NCBI GenBank assembly: GCA_002162095.1
Contig: CP021424.1
Location: 496,001-560,000 of the forward strand
Source: Armatimonadetes bacterium Uphvl-Ar2
GTDB taxonomy: Bacteria; Armatimonadota; Fimbriimonadia; Fimbriimonadales; Fimbriimonadaceae
Direction: 5' to 3'
DNA length: 64,000 nucleotides
Shown piece after piece: positions 1 to 9,147 of the stretch. A program made the translations under genes and the position numbers. Below the pieces are notes generated by a model. The model ran no database searches, was not told the origin of the DNA, and was given only the letters and a program-made list of their open reading frames with translations. Numbering within the stretch: position 1 is the stretch's first letter; each line of letters begins with the position of its first letter.

Positions 1-738
1 GTCGGCATCGTCGGCCGAGTGGTGCAGGCGCTGATTGACAAAACATGCTCGGCCTGATGTCTCCGCCACCGACATCTCGACTTGGAACAGCCAAGCCTCA
101 TCGCCCGCGTCCTTGCCATCCTGGGCGTTCTCCAGGAACAGACTTACCGCTCGCTTCCCATCTTGCAGTGCATAGGCGCGGGCACGAAAGATCACGGCGG
201 GAAACTCTTCATGGACCTTGTCATCGAAGCCCTTGTCCACCGAGAAAGTCACCTCAGCCGTATAAGCCGTCCGCTTCCAGACCATGGCGGGATCGCCCTT
301 CTTCTCGGTCAGAAAACCTTTCTCGCTGTGCTGCTTTCGGTACACAGCCCAAGAAAATCGTGCGATGAGTTCATCCGTGTCGCCATCCACGCAGCAGGTA
401 AAGCCAATGGATGTCGACAACATTGAATCGGCGGGTAGTGGGGTCTCGTCCTGGTCGCCTTCCTCGGTGGCCTCGGCACTCTCGTTGCCGTCGGGCTGCT
501 GCATTTGGTCCTCGATGGGAGGACGAGTGTTCTTGGGAGCCAAGACTCCCAGAACGTAGCGGTTGCTCGGCCTAGCTTCGACTCGCGTCCAAAGCTCTTC
601 GTCCTCGCCGTCCTTCGGGCCGACCAAGTCCTCCCGCATGAGGCGGTGGAACTCCTCCCGCACCCACCAGGGGGACACGACCTCTTCACGACGCTCATAG
701 CGAGGCAAGGGTTGTTCGTCGGCGCGCGGAATTCTCAT
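1..738 (-). CDS. drmA: DISARM helicase DrmA, N-terminal part (runs off the left edge)
   Basis: Reading the minus strand from an ATG at 738 gives 246 codons with no stop to the window edge. No ATG-initiated reading of this frame is obvious because the end is missing. The residues around DLVGPKDG and RYVLGVLAP match the start of DrmA, the DISARM helicase, where a LxGPxDG stretch is followed by a YxxGxLAP stretch. An acidic linker (about residues 60-90) and a TSIGF segment follow, also as in that family. The helicase motifs would lie left of the window. It comes after drmD, drmMI and fic in the same orientation, which is the class 1 DISARM order. Identification rests on N-terminal resemblance plus context. 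Confidence 0.78.
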   Translation of the reverse strand, partial: MRIPRADEQPLPRYERREEVVSPWWVREEFHRLMREDLVGPKDGEDEELWTRVEARPSNRYVLGVLAPKNTRPPIEDQMQQPDGNESAEATEEGDQDETPLPADSMLSTSIGFTCCVDGDTDELIARFSWAVYRKQHSEKGFLTEKKGDPAMVWKRTAYTAEVTFSVDKGFDDKVHEEFPAVIFRARAYALQDGKRAVSLFLENAQDGKDAGDEAWLFQVEMSVAETSGRACFVNQRLHHSADDAD

Positions 739-777
739 GAACTAAGCCTACAGTTTACGTCGAAAATAACGTAGAAT

Positions 778-954
778 ATGAAGAGGATGGCTTCGCTCGC
801 AAAGTCCAATAAGTATGTTCGACGTCGAGACGAGCGTCTGGCCGCGATTGTAAAGTCAGCCCGCCAGTCGAGTCTGCTTGAGGGAGCAGTTGACATCGAA
901 GGCATTCGATTCAAGTACACCAAGTCTGGTCGGATCATTCGGCTCGTAAAATAG
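778..954 (+). CDS. Candidate class I Fic antitoxin, 58 aa, antisense to the operon
   Basis: This short ORF starts at an ATG at 778 and encodes a basic 58-residue protein. It contains KSNKYVRRRDERL followed by SARQSSLLEGA. The SSLLEG part fits the (S/T)xxxE(G/N) inhibitory motif, whose glutamate reaches into the Fic active site and blocks ATP binding. Its stop overlaps the 3' end of fic by 20 bp, tail to tail (935-954), and its start lies only 39 bp from the drmA start, pointing away. Known class I antitoxins such as VbhA are normally co-directional and upstream of fic, so this layout is odd. No good ribosome binding site precedes 778; an ATG at 787 is an alternative. The assignment is inference from motif and position. 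Confidence 0.6.
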   Translation: MKRMASLAKSNKYVRRRDERLAAIVKSARQSSLLEGAVDIEGIRFKYTKSGRIIRLVK

Positions 955-1597
955 CCTCGATGAGGAGATGCGCGAGCGGGCCGTAATCCAACCGCTGCAG
1001 CGCGACATGCATAGCTCGGTAGTACTCTGCTCGATTGGCAAGTCCATTGACCCCCTCAAAATCATAGTCGAGGATGGGACGGTCTGCTTGGAGAGCCATG
1101 ATATCCGTCACCCATCGGGCGACACGGCCGTTCCCCTCACGAAAGGGATGAATCATGATGAACTCAGCCTGCACCTCGGCGAGTTGGAGGGCCAACGCAC
1201 CCAAATCCTTCTCGCGACAGGGCGTATATCGACAAAGCTGATTTGCCTCAAATGCCGCCAGGTTTGACTCCAAAAACGCTGCGTGAGAGAATCGAAATTC
1301 TGGGACCTCACCGTGCGGAGGGGCTGTGATGTCCACGTTTCTCAACGCACCCGCGAAGGCATAGATGCGACCGAGCCAGCTTCGGTGCATCTCTCGGATG
1401 AGCTCCACGGAGAGAACAGTATCATCTCCCACGCTCTTAATGAACTTATCCTGCGCCTTTACTAGGGCCTCGTATTCAATCTGGCCCATTTGAACAGGAT
1501 CTACAACTCCGACCAGGTTTCTCAGCACCGCACCGTTTGAACCTGGCTCGTAATCATCCAGACCCGTGGTGCCGTACTTAGACACTCCCGTCACCAT
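935..1597 (-). CDS. fic: Fic/DOC family protein (putative AMP-transferase)
   Basis: The protein has 220 residues from the ATG at 1597. The motif HPFREGNGRVAR is a complete HxFx(D/E)GNGRxxR Fic signature with the catalytic histidine, acidic residue and arginine, so it should be able to transfer AMP or a similar group to a hydroxyl side chain. It starts like many class I Fic proteins (VSKYGTTGL) and has no (S/T)xxxEG inhibitory helix of its own, so a separate antitoxin is expected; a candidate is encoded opposite its 3' end. The start overlaps the last 20 bp of drmMI, which suggests translational coupling within the DISARM operon. A second ATG at 1612 is possible. Whether it acts in DISARM or is a toxin-antitoxin passenger is unknown. 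Confidence 0.88.
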   Translation of the reverse strand: MVTGVSKYGTTGLDDYEPGSNGAVLRNLVGVVDPVQMGQIEYEALVKAQDKFIKSVGDDTVLSVELIREMHRSWLGRIYAFAGALRNVDITAPPHGEVPEFRFSHAAFLESNLAAFEANQLCRYTPCREKDLGALALQLAEVQAEFIMIHPFREGNGRVARWVTDIMALQADRPILDYDFEGVNGLANRAEYYRAMHVALQRLDYGPLAHLLIEAILRAE

Positions 1598-4500
1598 CCA
1601 CGAGATCGCCATCACCAAACAGGCCGCCGATAGTTGCCTCGGGCTTGCGTTTGGCTTTGCCTTTCTTGGGCTTGGCGGCGTTGGGGTTGGCGGCGAGTTC
1701 TGCCTGTTCCTCGGCGTAGCGGTGGTGGTTTTCGGCGAGGAGGCGGCGGAGCATCTCTTTGCGGGCGGCGGGGGAGACGGTGAAGCGGGGGCCGCGGCCG
1801 AGGTCGTAGAAGTCGTGCTCCAGATCGAGGTCTTCCCAGCCGTAGGCGGCGCTGACGGCGGCATCGTTGGCGATGACGGCCTGGCGCAGGGCTTCGATGT
1901 CCGCATCCCGCACGGTGGGGTTGTGCATCAGCTTGCTCACCGCGGTGAGTCCGATCTGGCGGGCATCCATCGCCGCGCGGCGGGCGTCATCGAGCGCCTT
2001 GCCCGATGCATCCAAACTCTCGGTGAGCTCAGGCAAGGGGAACGTCTCGAACGCATCGGTGATCGAATAGCTTTGTCGTGACTCAAGCGTCGGGCTATAC
2101 GTTCTAGCCCAAAGCTCATGCCAGCTCGACATTAGGGCTGCAAAGTGCGCATCACGATCAAACACAATGACACTTAATCGCTGATCAAGGACAATAAGTG
2201 TGGAGACCCAGCTAAAGTTGTGATATTGGGAGACCCCGGAACGCGCCAAACAACGAGTCATGGGAAGAATGGCAGAATAGAGGTCCGACGACTTCTCTGC
2301 AAACTGCCAGAATTTTTCTGCTCTTGGTGATCGAAGCTGGAAATTGCGGCCGTTCCTATCTGGACCCTTCTCGCTCGGACGCTGCCGTTCAGAGCGAACT
2401 TCTGTCTCGACGATGGCCAGTGCCTCGCGGTAGTCAGCGGCGACGGGGTCAGGGTAGTCGGCGGGAACCGCACCCATTTGGAGCCAGTGCTTGTGATATT
2501 CCTCGGTCGTCTCGATACTTCGTTCTGGATTCTCCCAGCGTTGTTTCCTGGTCGGGAACCAATCGTCGGCCCGAGTCGGATTCGCCTTGCGAACCGTCTC
2601 CACAACATCTTCGCCACTGACGGGCAGCGCTTGCCCGACTCGGCCAAGCGGCCAGTCGTGGAAGTTGATGACCCAACGGCTTGGGCGTTGACCGACCTCG
2701 TTGTTCAGGTCCTCGCCATTGAGATAGGGGAAGAGGACGGCGGAAAGTTCGGGATTCGCCGCCAGCATCCGCTCCGCTTGCTCGATCTCCAGCACAAACC
2801 CTTTGCCCAGCACGTAAGAACCAATAAACGACAGTCCCTCGTTGGCCACAAGTCGCTTCGGCGTGCGATCCCCATCTTCGGCATCGAGCATAGGGGAGAC
2901 AATCTCAACGACTTCACCTTGCAAGAACTTCGGGCCGCGGAACTCGCCCTTGCGCAGCCAGACCTTGGCAACTTCCAGGTTCGCGGATTTAGAGGGCCAT
3001 TTGACCGATTTCACCGCTCGATAGGCGGTGGCAAGGGGCGTATGATCTCCCTTGGGCTTGAGAAGCTGATCCAGCCCCACTTCTCGGGTGTCGCCTTCGG
3101 AAATCGTGTTGGTGGCGAGCAGTCCCACCGAGCCATCCTGCTTCGTGATGCCTGCGGCGCGGAGAAAGAAGTAAGCACAGAGGTCGGCGCTGCCCTTCTT
3201 GCCGTGAGCGATTCGCGAAACGATGTAGTCACGGAACGGCGTGCCCATCGAATCGGTGATCTTCTGCCCGCCGACAAACGGAGGGTTGCCGACGATGGCA
3301 TCAAAGCCGCCCTCGGCAAACACGTCGGCGAACTCTAGATCGAAGTGGAAGGTCGGCCGACCGAGGATGCTTCCCAGTTGGCTTGCCTTCTCACGGTCGG
3401 GGCGCCCTTGGAGCATGGCGAGGCGCGTTTGCCGTGCTGCTTCCAGCTCCTTCCGTTGGGCAGCGTTGGTGGCCTTGGTGAACGCCTCGGTAAGCAGCAG
3501 GTCCGCAGCCACCCGCAAGGCCACTTCATGCTTCTCAGCTTCCTCGAAGTAGTCTTCTCGCTGCTTCACGCCCACTGGAGTGTTGCCAGGGATGCGGCGC
3601 ATAGCATCGCGAATCCGTCGAACGTCCTTGACCGAATCCTGTACCCACGGGAGGAGCAGCCCTCCGCCTTGGGCGTCGTCGGGCTTGAGCGAGAAGCGTT
3701 CCAGCTCATCCAGGGTCACTCCCACCAAACTGTCTCCGCACTTGAGGGCGTGGTTGAGAAAGTGGAACGGCTTATCCTTGCGCATGGTGATGAGCCAGAG
3801 CGAGAGCTTGGCCATCTCCGTCGCCATGGGGTTGATGTCGACGCCGTAAAGGCAGCGATCCACCACCATGCTGCGCGCCACGGCGAGACGTTCCTCAGGG
3901 TCGATGGGAAGGGGATCGATCTTCGGGTCGCCGACCGTGAAATCGCCCTGGGGGGTTCGAATCTGCTTTCGATCTGGCCGTTGAGGATCGTAAGCCACCA
4001 AGAGGGCACCTGCATCCGTGCAAGCGAGTCTCGCGTCGGCCTCGACAGACCGAACCGCGGCTTCGGCGTCGTCCCATGCTTCCACAACCTTGGCACTCAG
4101 GAATCGGCACACGGCGACGAGGAATGCCCCCGAACCCATTGCGATATCGGCCACCCGCAGGTCGAGCAGTTCGGTGGCGGTCTTCTTTCGCCACTGGTCT
4201 TGGGGCCAACCCTCTGCCATGCCCTCGACGATGAGTGGCTCCAGGGTGTGCTGCACCATCTCCTCGGCGAGGAAGCGCGGGGTGTAGTGGGTGCCCGTTC
4301 CGCGGCGCTCGCTGCTATCGCTGACGTAGCGGCTGCCCTCCAGATAGACCTGATAGCGGCCCATGGAGTCGGTTCGGATGAGGTTCGCCCAGGGCTTGAT
4401 GCGCTCGAACATCTCGGAGTTGCCGTGGCACGCGGCGCGGAGACCCGACTCTCGTTCGGGGGTGATCGGGGCGTCCAAGAGCCTCTGGATCGCCCGCTCG

Positions 4501-5900
4501 CTTCGGTCGGTCTCCTTAGCGAGGAGCTTCGTGAAGTCCTTCTTTCCACGAAGGGCTTCCAGTTCGGAGAGGCTCAGTTCGGGTTCGTACGTCTTCTTGC
4601 CAACCAGGCCGAGCACAGGTTCAGTGGCCGTGTGGATCGTATGATCGAGCAGGCCCTCGTAGACGTATCCGATCTGCTCGACGTCGAGCGCCTCGAAGGA
4701 GACCCGTCGTCGCTCTTTGCCCGTCGGACCATCCACCAGGATGTACTGGAGCGATTCGAGGACGTGAAGGGTTACGCGGTTGTTGACCTTTAGCCTTTCC
4801 AAGAATGGGTAGGCGGTTGGATCGAAGAGGCTGCCCCCATAGGCGGTGACTTGGAGTTCGGGGAGCGGCGAACCTGCGTGGAGGAGCCTGGCGTTGGCCA
4901 TCAGGCGCATCCAAGCGTCGTGGCGGCGCTCCAGGATTTCCTCGCCCTGCTCGCTGGCTTCTTCTTCAAGCTGGGAGAGCAACGAGCTTGCCGCGTAGTG
5001 ATTCTTGTAAGTGTTGCTGGTGTCAACGGGCAATAGCTTGCGTTCCTCGGCGCAGAGGAGGAACATCAGGCGCATCATGACGGTGAGGCAGCCGCGATAG
5101 AGGTCCTCGTTCTTGGTGTCCTTGAGCAGCTCTCGCCCCGTTTCCTCGTCGAGGCGATCCATCTCTCGGGCGAGGAGTTCGACCGAAGCGCGCACCTGGC
5201 GGCCGAGATCGAGGGTGAGTTCTTCTTCGTCATCTCGTGAGGCGAGCAGCAGATCGGCCAGCGATTCACCTTCGGCTGCACCCACGACTCGACGTAAGCC
5301 AAGAAGGCTGGTAAACGCCCGCAGGAGGTCTTCTTCGTCGGCGAGGACATCGCTTCGGAAGGTGATGTAGCCCGTGGCGTCGCTCTCGCGAACGTGGATG
5401 AGCGTCCATTCGGAGCCGTTTGTGACAAGGCCATGGGTGAGCTGGTTGGCCTTGAGCAACGCCTGCATCCGCTGGTTGGGCGAGGCGATCCATCGATGTC
5501 CTTGCAGCGGTTGGCCGAGCTTCTGTCCCTTGGGGACCGCCAGGATCGGGAGCCTGGGATCGCCATCGTTGCCGACCACGAGGAAGGTGGGGCGGACGGT
5601 GTCGTTACTTGCTTCGTCGACGAATTTCAGCTCATCGGGGACTCGGCCCAGGGATAGCAGAACCTCGTCGTCGTATTCCAGAACAGCGGCGAGCACCCAG
5701 GTGATCCACGCTTGGTGGATGCCTTTGTCCGTCTGCTCGTACCATTCCTCGTAGGCGAGTTGGAACTGTTGGCGGAGTCCCTTCTCTAGGGTTTCCAGCC
5801 CCATCGGTAACGCTCTGCCGAGCGAGGTGAGGCTGAGGAACGGTCCCGAGATATCGAGCAGGCTGATCCAATCGTGCTGTCCCGACTTGAACCTCGCCAT
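1578..5900 (-). CDS. drmMI: DISARM class 1 adenine methyltransferase DrmMI
   Basis: This 1440-residue protein resembles Eco57I/type IIG-like N6-adenine methyltransferases. The SAM-binding motif lies in a segment reading ADIAMGSGAFLVAV near residue 587, and the catalytic NPPF motif in VGNPPFVGG near residue 871. In DISARM the methylase marks host DNA as self; class 1 systems use this adenine enzyme rather than the cytosine enzyme of class 2. The start overlaps the drmD stop by 1 bp, so the two are co-translated. The C-terminus ends in a Lys/Ala-rich linker (KPKKGKAKRKPE) and an acidic tail. A stand-alone type IIG restriction-modification enzyme is the alternative, but the drmD and drmA neighbours favour DISARM. 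Confidence 0.87.
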   Translation of the reverse strand: MARFKSGQHDWISLLDISGPFLSLTSLGRALPMGLETLEKGLRQQFQLAYEEWYEQTDKGIHQAWITWVLAAVLEYDDEVLLSLGRVPDELKFVDEASNDTVRPTFLVVGNDGDPRLPILAVPKGQKLGQPLQGHRWIASPNQRMQALLKANQLTHGLVTNGSEWTLIHVRESDATGYITFRSDVLADEEDLLRAFTSLLGLRRVVGAAEGESLADLLLASRDDEEELTLDLGRQVRASVELLAREMDRLDEETGRELLKDTKNEDLYRGCLTVMMRLMFLLCAEERKLLPVDTSNTYKNHYAASSLLSQLEEEASEQGEEILERRHDAWMRLMANARLLHAGSPLPELQVTAYGGSLFDPTAYPFLERLKVNNRVTLHVLESLQYILVDGPTGKERRRVSFEALDVEQIGYVYEGLLDHTIHTATEPVLGLVGKKTYEPELSLSELEALRGKKDFTKLLAKETDRSERAIQRLLDAPITPERESGLRAACHGNSEMFERIKPWANLIRTDSMGRYQVYLEGSRYVSDSSERRGTGTHYTPRFLAEEMVQHTLEPLIVEGMAEGWPQDQWRKKTATELLDLRVADIAMGSGAFLVAVCRFLSAKVVEAWDDAEAAVRSVEADARLACTDAGALLVAYDPQRPDRKQIRTPQGDFTVGDPKIDPLPIDPEERLAVARSMVVDRCLYGVDINPMATEMAKLSLWLITMRKDKPFHFLNHALKCGDSLVGVTLDELERFSLKPDDAQGGGLLLPWVQDSVKDVRRIRDAMRRIPGNTPVGVKQREDYFEEAEKHEVALRVAADLLLTEAFTKATNAAQRKELEAARQTRLAMLQGRPDREKASQLGSILGRPTFHFDLEFADVFAEGGFDAIVGNPPFVGGQKITDSMGTPFRDYIVSRIAHGKKGSADLCAYFFLRAAGITKQDGSVGLLATNTISEGDTREVGLDQLLKPKGDHTPLATAYRAVKSVKWPSKSANLEVAKVWLRKGEFRGPKFLQGEVVEIVSPMLDAEDGDRTPKRLVANEGLSFIGSYVLGKGFVLEIEQAERMLAANPELSAVLFPYLNGEDLNNEVGQRPSRWVINFHDWPLGRVGQALPVSGEDVVETVRKANPTRADDWFPTRKQRWENPERSIETTEEYHKHWLQMGAVPADYPDPVAADYREALAIVETEVRSERQRPSEKGPDRNGRNFQLRSPRAEKFWQFAEKSSDLYSAILPMTRCLARSGVSQYHNFSWVSTLIVLDQRLSVIVFDRDAHFAALMSSWHELWARTYSPTLESRQSYSITDAFETFPLPELTESLDASGKALDDARRAAMDARQIGLTAVSKLMHNPTVRDADIEALRQAVIANDAAVSAAYGWEDLDLEHDFYDLGRGPRFTVSPAARKEMLRRLLAENHHRYAEEQAELAANPNAAKPKKGKAKRKPEATIGGLFGDGDLVDGDGSV

Positions 5901-8900
5901 CAGTTGCCCTCCTTGGGAAGGACGATGGTGATCGCCACGGGAAAGAGCCTCGGGGTGGGTTCGGCGTAGCGCTCATCGAGGGCGGCTTGCTCGCGCTTGA
6001 TTTCCTCGGGAATCTGAGCAATTCGGTGGCGCAAGAGGTTTGAGTAGTCGGCACGGTCGAACTCGCCAAAGTCGAGTTCGAGCTGATCGGGCTTTTCGAG
6101 GCCTTGCTGAAGTTGGGCTTTGAGTTCGAGGAGAACCTTCTCGACTTCGGCTTTCTCGGCGTCTCGCTTTCGCTGGATTCGATTGTCAAGGGTCTCGGTA
6201 CGCTCCTTCATACGGGCTTCCAGCGTTCGGCGAAGGATCGGTTCAAGCTGCGGCCACTTGGCTCTGACATTGGCGATGATGCGGTCTGACCCACGGCCGT
6301 TCTCCAGGTTGGCGGCGATTTCCTTGAGTTCGGCCTCGCTGAAGCGAACCCACTTGTTGTCAACCGTCTTTCCGCCTGCCACCAACAGTTCTTCATGGAG
6401 GCGCTTCATCGTCTTGCCAAGCACGAGCAGGCGGCCGTGGACGATGACGGCGGGGGTATCGAGAAGACCTTTCGAGACGGTCTTGACTGTGATCCGCTTG
6501 ATCTTGCCCTGATCGCGTTCCCACACCGCCGCTCGGAGGAGTCCGAGGCACATGGCGACGAGTCGATGGTTCAAGTGGGCGAGGACGACAGTGTCGCGCC
6601 CCTCAGCTTGCTTGGGGTCGAAGACGATGGGTCGAGGCTCTTTGGTAAAGGGGTGTTCGAGGCCCTTAAGGCATTCCGACCAGGCTCCCGTCAGGACAGG
6701 CACTTTGAATGCGGTGCCGACCTCGGGGACTTCAACAGGTTCAAGAGGGATCTGATTGGCGAGTTTGAGACCGACTTCGACGACCTTGCGGACGTTTTCG
6801 GGAGTCAAGTGCATCTCGCGCTTGGCGACCTCGTACTCCTCATTCAGCCGCTTGACCTGCTCGGCAAGATCAACCTCCGCCTTGAGCAGTCGGCGAATCT
6901 TGTTGGTCTCGTTCTCGGCGAGGGTGGTGTCGAGCACCGACCGCTTTCCGAGCATGCGCTCCTCGATCTGTTCGGCAATGACGGGGCCGACTCGGCCGAG
7001 GTCTTCACGGATTTGAGAGGTCTTCTTGGCGGCAACAAACAGGAATTCCAGATCGTCGTCGAGATCGTCTTTGCTGCGCCCGTTCTCCGTTGCGGCGCTC
7101 GCGGGGGCGAAGTGGAAGATCGTAACGTCGCGCGGCTGGCCGTGGCGATCTACGCGGCCGTTCCGTTGCTCCATTACGGTCGGCCGCCAGCTCGTATCCC
7201 AATGGACGAGCTTGCAGCAGTGGTGATGGAGGTTGACGCCTTCGCTGGCCGTGTCGGTGGCGAGCAGGATACGGACCTTTGAGTACTTGGGGTCGGCAAG
7301 GAAGGCGTTCTTGAGATTCTGCCGCTCTTCAGGGGGCATGCCTCCGTACATCTCCGCGGCGCGTCCGTCTTCGGCGTAGCCTCGTTGGGACAGCTGGTTC
7401 CAGAGATACCTTTGGCTCGCGCGGGCCTCGGTGAAGATGATGACCCGCTCGTTTGTCCACTGCCCGTCAGGCTTGATGTGCTTATCCAGCCACTCCATTA
7501 GAACACGGAGTCGGGTGTCGGGCAGCAACTCGGCTCGACGCGCCCAGGACAAGAGTTCGTTGAGCATGCCGATCTGCTCTGGAGTCGCCTTAGGGCCCTC
7601 TTGAGACGCCATCTTGACGGTCGATTCAACAAGCTCTTCTTGATCGATGGACTCCTCAGCGAGGTTGTTCTCGGCGTCCTCCATCTCCTTGAGCATTCGT
7701 GCGAGGATGCCCGGAGCAGACTTCTTCTTCTCCTGATCCCTCGGCTCGGTGAGGGTCTTGAGGTGCGTTTCGAGAGTCGAGCGGAAGGCGGCTGGCGAGC
7801 TGAAGAACCGCTTCTTGAGGGTCTTAAGGACGAACTCGACGGCGATGTAGTCCGAACCTGAGGCCACGGCTCGGCGGCTCTTTGCATACCGCTGGAGAAG
7901 AGCATGGGCGGTTCGCTCCTCCTCGCTGTAGTCAATGTAGATCGGCTCGATGTCTCGCTTGCAGAATCGCTCGGCAAGTCCTTCATCGCTCTTGAGCCGC
8001 CGCACCATGGTAACGCCGTGGAGCTGCTCCCTATTGAGCGGCGCGCCGCGCATGTAGCGCTGGTTATCAAGGAGTTCAAGAAGTGCGGTGAAGCTTTCTG
8101 AGTAGCCGTTGTGCGGGGTGGCCGAAAGGAACAGCTTGTGCTCGAAGTGGGGACCGATCTCCTTGACGAGGGTGGTTCTCTGGCTATTACGCATCCCACG
8201 CCCACCTGGGGCCACGTTGTGGCACTCATCGACAACGAGCATGCCGAATCGCCGTGGGAAGCTCGGTGTCCCCTCTGGGATGAGGTCTTTGAAGACGCGG
8301 AGGACGTGGTCCTGCTTGAGGAAGTCGTAGCTGGTGATCAACCGTGGATAGCTGGACCAAGGATTCGCGTGGATGCCCTGTTTCCGTCTGAGATCGCGCA
8401 TCGCTTGATGGTCGACGATTCGGAAGTCGAGGCCAAACTTGTCGCGCATCTCCTCTTGCCACTGGAGCTGAAGCGATGAAGGACAGAGGATGAGAATGCG
8501 CTGGATTCGGTTGCGGTGGACGAACTCTTGGATGACTAAGCCAGCTTCAATGGTCTTACCGAGTCCCACGCCATCGGCTAGGAGAAGGTTGGTTCTCGGA
8601 ACTTGGAGCGCTCTTACAAGCGGGTCCAACTGGTAGTCCTCGATCTTGATGCCGCTGCGAAATGGAGCGAGGAAGGTCCCGCGGTCAATGTCGTTCACGA
8701 TGCCCCACCGAACGGCATTGAGGAAGGCGTCCAGCGTCTCGGGATCGTCCAGACCTTCAGGATTGGGGAGGGCGTCGAAGTCCAGTGCTTCAGCGTTCGG
8801 CTCGGCTTGCCAAACAACCGTAATCTCGTCGCCCAAGGAATCATCAACGCTGGCGAGCTTTACGAGATGCTTCGAGTCGGGACGACCTTCAGGGTTGATC

Positions 8901-8980
8901 ACGTCGAGCGTGACGAACCTCCGCCCTCGAACGTGCGCGAGCTGGCCGACACTCGGAACCTCCTTACTCAGTTGAAACAT
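5900..8980 (-). CDS. drmD: DISARM SNF2-type helicase DrmD
   Basis: A superfamily 2, SNF2-like helicase of about 1026 residues. Visible motifs are Walker A (DGVGLGKTIEAG, near residue 133), the Walker B/DEAH variant DECH (near 245), motif III-like LSATPHNG, motif V-like TDTASEGVNL, and motif VI EQRNGRVDRHGQ (near 603). I chose the ATG at 8980 because it puts the SVGQLAHVRGRRF segment about 10 residues in, as in DrmD proteins. A TTG at 9040 would add 20 residues of poor quality. It is the first gene of the DISARM operon and overlaps drmMI by 1 bp. DrmD is the marker that separates class 1 from class 2 DISARM. Confidence 0.87.
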   Translation of the reverse strand: MFQLSKEVPSVGQLAHVRGRRFVTLDVINPEGRPDSKHLVKLASVDDSLGDEITVVWQAEPNAEALDFDALPNPEGLDDPETLDAFLNAVRWGIVNDIDRGTFLAPFRSGIKIEDYQLDPLVRALQVPRTNLLLADGVGLGKTIEAGLVIQEFVHRNRIQRILILCPSSLQLQWQEEMRDKFGLDFRIVDHQAMRDLRRKQGIHANPWSSYPRLITSYDFLKQDHVLRVFKDLIPEGTPSFPRRFGMLVVDECHNVAPGGRGMRNSQRTTLVKEIGPHFEHKLFLSATPHNGYSESFTALLELLDNQRYMRGAPLNREQLHGVTMVRRLKSDEGLAERFCKRDIEPIYIDYSEEERTAHALLQRYAKSRRAVASGSDYIAVEFVLKTLKKRFFSSPAAFRSTLETHLKTLTEPRDQEKKKSAPGILARMLKEMEDAENNLAEESIDQEELVESTVKMASQEGPKATPEQIGMLNELLSWARRAELLPDTRLRVLMEWLDKHIKPDGQWTNERVIIFTEARASQRYLWNQLSQRGYAEDGRAAEMYGGMPPEERQNLKNAFLADPKYSKVRILLATDTASEGVNLHHHCCKLVHWDTSWRPTVMEQRNGRVDRHGQPRDVTIFHFAPASAATENGRSKDDLDDDLEFLFVAAKKTSQIREDLGRVGPVIAEQIEERMLGKRSVLDTTLAENETNKIRRLLKAEVDLAEQVKRLNEEYEVAKREMHLTPENVRKVVEVGLKLANQIPLEPVEVPEVGTAFKVPVLTGAWSECLKGLEHPFTKEPRPIVFDPKQAEGRDTVVLAHLNHRLVAMCLGLLRAAVWERDQGKIKRITVKTVSKGLLDTPAVIVHGRLLVLGKTMKRLHEELLVAGGKTVDNKWVRFSEAELKEIAANLENGRGSDRIIANVRAKWPQLEPILRRTLEARMKERTETLDNRIQRKRDAEKAEVEKVLLELKAQLQQGLEKPDQLELDFGEFDRADYSNLLRHRIAQIPEEIKREQAALDERYAEPTPRLFPVAITIVLPKEGN

Positions 8981-9147
8981 AAACAGACTCGCTTGATTGC
9001 CGAACCAACCATACTCAATTCCAATTGATGAGGTCGGCAATTCTACCGCCGGCAGCCGTCGGAACTCGCTTGCACACGATGGCGCAAGTTGGAAGACTTT
9101 GAAAAGCTTGGGGCCGCACTTCCAACCCAGGTCTCTTGAGCTAACCT

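Follow-up and report, generated by a model that had tools for sequence, protein, structure and literature searches.

A convergent fic–antitoxin gene pair within a class 1 DISARM locus: a probable class I-type toxin–antitoxin module with relatives in about ten phyla

We identified a small gene that lies 3' of, and points towards, a fic gene within a DISARM locus of Armatimonadetes bacterium Uphvl-Ar2. The locus lies at one end of the window, by which we mean the whole stretch of 64,000 nucleotides analyzed (contig CP021424.1, positions 496,001 to 560,000) of the 2.63 Mb genome. The pair is very probably (roughly 85%) a class I-type two-gene toxin–antitoxin module of convergent architecture, in which Fic would be toxic and the small protein would inhibit it by analogy with class I relatives. 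This toxin–antitoxin reading is strongly supported, and its direct basis is conservation, orientation, selection, co-evolution, a promoter signal and the predicted Fic fold.

The fic gene and its convergent partner

The class 1 DISARM system is complete, with drmD, drmMI, drmA, drmB and drmC all in one locus, and is encoded on the minus strand in the order drmD, drmMI, fic, drmA, drmB, drmC (Table 1). Depending on which start codon is used, the 5' end of fic shares 8 or 20 bp with the end of drmMI; because homologous Fic proteins begin with MSRY, GTG 1585 is as likely a start as ATG 1597. A small ORF on the plus strand lies between fic, which stops at 935, and drmA, which starts at 738. A 317-aa gene adjoining drmC in the same genome (L037 5675-6628, minus strand) matches the PADLOC candidate defence family PDC-S11 (4.5e-115).

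Table 1. Positions of the features discussed, in window coordinates.
Feature	Position	Strand	Basis
drmA, N-terminal part inside the window	1..738	-	NCBIfam DrmAS, 1.2e-29
Imperfect inverted repeat TTTACGT-N8-ACGTAGA over the candidate promoter	754..775	.	Read from sequence
-10-like box TAGAAT, 9 nt before ATG 787; candidate antitoxin promoter with a very short leader	772..777	+	Family-wide enrichment
Convergent antitoxin gene, 55 aa (ORF reaches ATG 778, 58 aa)	787..954	+	Conserved family alignments, purifying selection, second copy in genome
Inhibitory motif SSLLEG (S28-SLL-E32-G33), ending predicted helix 14-32	868..885	+	Conservation; AlphaFold2 helix
Tail-to-tail coding overlap of fic and antitoxin, 20 bp	935..954	.	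3' ends of both ORFs
fic, class I-type Fic/AMP-transferase, 216-220 aa, start GTG 1585 or ATG 1597	935..1597	-	Pfam Fic, 4.3e-13
Fic active site, including the second Arg, expected contact of the antitoxin Glu	1115..1150	-	Read from sequence
drmMI, DISARM methyltransferase, upstream of and overlapping fic	1578..5900	-	PADLOC DrmMI, E 0, 1444.7 bits
drmD, DISARM SNF2 helicase	5900..9040	-	NCBIfam DrmD, 1111.9 bits (cut-off 610)
Full drmA, drmB, drmC	Left of window, seen in extended own-genome locus L037	- (series)	

The active site of the window Fic, HPFREGNGRVAR, matches the HxFx(D/E)GNGRxxR core of FicTA toxins, and its H, P, F, G, N, G, R and R residues are invariant in an alignment of 60 homologues. 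Direct reading of the sequence finds no [ST]xxxE[GN] motif inside the protein, as is typical of FicTA toxins, and the motif is likewise absent from nearly all homologues. The protein also matches model PDLC04839 of the PADLOC candidate PDC-S04 (3.6e-52). Structure comparison of its AlphaFold2 model (pLDDT 93.6) places it closest to VbhT (3shg, Z 21.8, 22% identity over 195 residues), and the nearest folds overall are VbhT, EcFicT, Bep1 and Fic-1, all of which were solved with antitoxins.

The partner is a separate small protein whose SSLLEG sequence fits the (S/T)xxxE(G/N) pattern of FicTA antitoxins. Since its homologues begin with MASLAK, ATG 787 (55 aa) is a likelier start than 778 (58 aa). 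The family consensus is roughly K-S-L-x-x-T-N-P-Y-L-(K/R)-D ... S-V-x-S-S-x-A-I-E-(G/T). Neither Ser28 nor Glu32 varies across 69 alignment rows, an invariance that holds by construction for Glu and partly so for Ser, as the ORFs were picked with a motif pattern that sets the one and favors the other. About one third of the antitoxins (loci within L046-L118), mostly proteobacterial and cyanobacterial, carry SxxxET instead of SxxxE[GN]; this branch reads SSTAIETG, with Thr replacing Gly/Asn after the inhibitory Glu. The antitoxin of Chthonomonas sp. UBA2785 (L023), which belongs to the same genus as the window genome, has Cys at the Ser position. The AlphaFold2 model, of medium confidence (pLDDT 71), predicts helices at residues 4-12 and 14-32, the motif closing the second, followed by a flexible hairpin.

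The antitoxins have no family match in Pfam, NCBIfam or the PDB. The VbhA family (PF18495) does not match any of 33 antitoxin members at E 1, and its model finds nothing over cut-off in 24 module-bearing genomes. Alignment with hhalign against a VbhA/YhfG-type alignment detects similarity only over the inhibitory helix, in register and weak (probability 12%), and by profile match the window-type antitoxins do not belong to the VbhA or YhfG family.

An earlier note on this sequence had placed a Fic protein with a full active site, lacking an inhibitory motif of its own, inside DISARM. It had also drawn attention to a 58-codon ORF on the opposite strand that carries SxxxEG and overlaps fic by 20 bp. 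Both descriptions stand: drmD and drmMI lie upstream of fic and drmA, drmB and drmC downstream, the active site and Pfam match are clear, and only the start positions of the two ORFs have been refined.

Conservation of the convergent pair

The same phylum has 14 further Fic genes, and each is met at its 3' end by a convergent ORF, roughly 47-88 codons in length. Scanning 84,980 genomes with an alignment yielded 80 more fic loci, and nearly all of the intact ones have a convergent ORF. The alignment was needed as query, as a search with the window Fic as single query returned no related loci. Under one fixed rule, a convergent ORF with the motif is found at 75 of 84 related fic 3' ends compared with 7 of 695 other gene ends, while a motif ORF upstream on the same strand is found at none of the 84. 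These counts use a widened pattern, since the first, [ST]xxxE[GN], skips the SxxxET branch and makes about half of the loci look negative. Of the nine fic ends without a hit, most show a recognizable variant, such as VSSNTAVETG in L064 or LSSMAIEGVK in L090; one belongs to a different Fic that carries its own motif. The earlier note had staked its reading on conservation of the ORF in homologous loci, and that reading survives the comparison.

Across a catalogue of 81 fic–antitoxin pairs the overlap between the two genes ranges between -112 and +42 nt. It is thus the orientation that is conserved and not the 20-bp overlap, which makes a role for the overlap itself less likely. Antitoxin codons that do not overlap fic have a pN well under pS in each of the pairs tested, and the same is true of fic; the antitoxin ORF is thus under purifying selection similar to that on fic. 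Antitoxin distances also track Fic distances (mirror-tree r 0.77, shuffled null 0 +/- 0.05). The small ORF is a real conserved protein and convergent pairing is the rule, not an accident. A short ORF that matches nothing in Pfam or NCBIfam might be suspected of being a chance antisense frame with a lucky motif. However, there is next to no probability of this: the contrast with other gene ends and the purifying selection rule it out, co-evolution and the promoter signal described below speak against it as well, and only about six antitoxin codons overlap fic in the window.

The 84 related fic genes span about ten phyla. Carriers are found in Armatimonadota, Verrucomicrobiota, Pseudomonadota, Cyanobacteriota, Nitrospirota, Nitrospinota, Omnitrophota, Myxococcota, Thermodesulfobacteriota and Planctomycetota, and in one Roizmanbacteria genome. 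Alloalcanivorax, Luteimonas and Salinivibrio are among the culturable carriers, and pairs also occur in Hydrogenophaga and Marinomonas. The pair is also present on conjugative plasmids, while the phage records searched contained no match. In annotated plasmids the two genes are given as separate coding sequences, a "Fic family protein" and a "hypothetical protein", and it is an upstream VbhA-type gene that is named antitoxin (L122). On the conjugative plasmid pNDM-CIT (L121 3677-5767) only 4 bp separate the convergent pair from the end of a site-specific integrase gene.

In a tree of 79 sequences the convergent-type Fics form one clade (support 100/99) apart from seven sampled Fics with upstream same-strand antitoxins, of which two have an upstream small gene that is unnamed rather than a named antitoxin. 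The exact root is unsure given the long branches between the two groups. The convergent fic–antitoxin pair is ancient and widespread, and is very probably a toxin–antitoxin module.

The window genome contains a second, orphan antitoxin (C1:1079481-1079636; L002 1492-1650, minus strand) that is 46% identical to the window copy. Its site is the place where Chthonomonas sp. UBA2785 holds a full pair, with flanks that are 93-96% identical. At the orphan site fic is absent and the antitoxin is kept, with a different tail. Both antitoxins of the window genome have a common C-terminal hairpin-like tail (KFVFKDGKVVRK, RFKYTKSGRIIRLVK), even without an overlapping fic. A toxin–antitoxin pair allows an antitoxin to be kept without its toxin. 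The orphan also counts in favor of the possibility that the pair is an addiction cassette that stabilizes a defence island, loss of the locus freeing a stable Fic from a short-lived antitoxin. The occurrence of the pair on conjugative plasmids, and beside restriction-modification, reverse-transcriptase and other defence genes, is in keeping with such a role. However, chromosomes hold many of the copies and co-evolution of the two genes has been long, and we consider the addiction role a tentative idea with the odds leaning against it, although one that is compatible with the toxin–antitoxin explanation.

Transcription of the two genes

The candidate -10 box in the window has counterparts in both same-genus copies (L023 and L002), where TATAAT is found 9 nt before the antitoxin ATG. 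Counting boxes with at least 5 of 6 matches, we found that 45 of 81 loci (within L023-L119), from many phyla, have one whose end lies 5-7 nt ahead of the antitoxin ATG, compared with 1.6 expected. The same placement occurs at 13 of 704 control gene starts and at a single one of the 81 fic starts. An automatic promoter scan requiring a -35 element had missed this promoter, and position-specific counts across loci revealed the signal. A spacing of 5-7 nt would put the transcription start on the ATG, which implies that the antitoxin mRNA is leaderless or nearly so. Shine-Dalgarno-like sequences precede 14% of antitoxins versus 33% of fic genes. Leaderless mRNAs are common for toxin-antitoxin modules in Mycobacterium tuberculosis (PMC3898074).

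An inverted repeat, GAACCT-N7-AGGTTC, also spans the antitoxin promoter in both same-genus copies (about 7930-7950 in L023). It is possible that this repeat and the imperfect one in the window are operators.

For fic we found no promoter signal above chance. In 56 of 78 loci the gene upstream of fic runs in the same direction, and it often overlaps fic or lies no more than 60 bp away. Given these two observations, fic and antitoxin appear to be supplied by separate transcription units. Any transcript in the window that runs from fic into drmA is antisense to the whole antitoxin gene, the layout of a noncontiguous operon (PMC7154746).

Defence context, known systems and proposed mechanism

That layout raises the possibility of a role specific to DISARM, with fic a working part of the system, as abortive-infection trigger or regulator, and antisense transcription from the antitoxin promoter tuning drmA. 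The same-strand overlap of fic with drmMI and the antitoxin gene lying wholly antisense between fic and drmA, as in a noncontiguous operon, are consistent with this. So is the company the family keeps: when 20 genes lying immediately before related fic genes were scanned, 9 proved to be members of PADLOC defence families (type I HsdR twice, HsdS, type IIG, reverse transcriptase UG19 twice, HerA, KwaB and PDC-S44). However, this count is suggestive only: length or closeness decided which neighbors were included, and the control, with ten members, is small and noisy. In several loci fic directly follows, and sometimes overlaps, a defence gene such as reverse transcriptase UG19, HsdS, a type IIG enzyme or KwaB (L081 2956-5022, L087 6917-8986, L074 7673-8959, L086 179-2515, L096 8057-8941).

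The wider survey argues against a DISARM-specific role. DISARM does not adjoin any of about 95 related fic loci, the nearest approach being weak helicase and methylase similarity at L025, L107 and L119. The earlier note had suggested an abortive-infection trigger or a regulator of DISARM, and a survey of other class 1 loci for the same insertion. The four such loci of the phylum that have both drmMI and drmA carry no fic between them but other cargo in each case: HD/dGTPase-like proteins, a PIN protein, an opposite-strand AbiGi-like gene and a DarG-like protein. Toxin–antitoxin pairs inserted in operons may also be functionally unlinked to the other genes (review, PMC7167474). We therefore regard a DISARM-specific role as quite improbable. 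The fic–antitoxin module is not a DISARM part, and DISARM is one host context only.

The drmMI-drmA gap is a variable cargo slot in these loci (L154 6992-11363, L155 7492-10295, L158 8780-10162, L159 9220-10695), with a DUF4209 gene also among the cargo, and it looks like a landing place for defence or toxin genes. The AbiGi-like putative antitoxin gene (PF10899; L155 7492-8181, minus strand) lies on the opposite strand and is convergent with drmMI, a second antisense gene inside a DISARM.

Among known systems, VbhT/VbhA of Bartonella (3shg, 3zc7) and its plasmid relatives share with the window pair the Fic fold, the active site and a separate small SxxxEG protein. However, vbhA lies upstream on the same strand in an operon with the VbhT gene (PMC5033356, PMC3667792; also L122). 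The same holds for EcFicT/EcFicA of E. coli (fic/yhfG), which has the fold (Z 21.2) and an SxxxEG antitoxin, with yhfG directly upstream of fic on the same strand; AMPylation by EcFicT has not been demonstrated (PMC5033356). Fic-1/AntF of Pseudomonas 2P24 (8wt0), which targets gyrase B, likewise has the class I fold (Z 19.8) and a Ser24/Glu28 motif, and antF is immediately upstream of fic-1 (PMC13327609) whereas the window antitoxin is downstream on the opposite strand. Described and sampled VbhT/EcFicT-type cases thus agree with the earlier note that class I antitoxins are upstream and codirectional. Of the PDC-S04 models, PDLC04839 best fits the convergent clade and PDLC04838 the Fics with upstream antitoxins; the models matched here cover the Fic gene alone, and the window small ORF matched no PADLOC antitoxin model.

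Excludons and noncontiguous operons (PMC7154746) resemble the window locus in having an opposite-strand gene embedded in an operon with overlapping transcripts, but we found no description in the literature searched of one formed by a protein toxin and its protein antitoxin. The 20-nt complementary stretch recalls type I toxin–antitoxin systems with antisense RNA, but the overlap is not conserved in the family. In the same literature, which does not include the field-founding subscription papers, we found no description of a convergent Fic antitoxin or of Fic in DISARM, and the convergent FicTA architecture is apparently undescribed so far. In all described FicTA systems the antitoxin gene lies immediately upstream, on the same strand and in one operon; as the window pair is convergent and lacks this layout, it is best described as a new convergent variant of class I FicTA. 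The upstream-operon layout belongs to the systems known so far and not to the mechanism itself.

Where class I pairs have been studied, productive binding of ATP is blocked by the antitoxin Glu, which bonds with the second Arg in the Fic motif (PMC3667792, PMC5033356). In Fic-1–AntF, Ser24 and Glu28, the counterparts of S28 and E32, bind R146 of Fic, and the complex removes AMP from GyrB, for which Glu28 is needed (PMC13327609). Given that S28, E32, R158 and R161 are all present in the window pair, we infer inhibition in trans, with topoisomerase-mediated growth arrest the likeliest toxic effect. By analogy, the Fic AMP-transferase would arrest growth via DNA gyrase or topoisomerase IV. As in VbhA, EcFicA and AntF, the 55-aa protein would dock on Fic and insert into the ATP site the helix that ends in S28-xxx-E32-G33; E32 would pair with the second Arg of the Fic active site and block catalysis.

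The close structural match to Fic-1–AntF, in which Ser24 and Glu28 contact Fic-1 (PMC13327609), also brings in a reversible switch rather than a lethal module, the complex removing AMP from its target and the Glu serving both inhibition and deAMPylation. However, fold and motif serve both readings, and a switch, which we consider rather unlikely, is compatible with the toxin–antitoxin explanation.

Under the toxin–antitoxin reading, the antitoxin gene would be its own transcription unit, with its own promoter and a (nearly) leaderless mRNA, pointing at fic from downstream. The fic gene would be read from the preceding gene, here drmMI, and separate units would make antitoxin supply independent of toxin supply. 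Transcription that passes fic on its way to drmA would cross the antitoxin gene over its full length on the opposite strand, and may have an antisense effect on it. The module would be a portable cassette that landed in the drmMI-drmA slot. An unlikely extension is that transcription itself is the sensor, strong read-through of fic making toxin while silencing the antitoxin by collision or antisense RNA, so that the pair guards many defence operons, including DISARM. The trigger would then be either an induced defence operon or a phage that takes over RNA polymerase.

Fic proteins have been assigned to classes by whether an inhibitory motif occurs within them or in the next gene upstream, and about one tenth of those with a canonical active site could not be placed (PMC3667792). 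Some of the missing Fic inhibitors may sit downstream on the other strand, filed as hypothetical proteins. A review describes type II toxin–antitoxin systems as single operons with either gene order (PMC7167474). The convergent family is a large, testable set of probable toxin–antitoxin pairs in which transcription of the two genes appears to be decoupled, as is rare among type II systems. Clear predictions for RNA-seq and phage assays follow from the predicted leaderless antitoxin promoter and from the repeated position of the pair behind defence genes.
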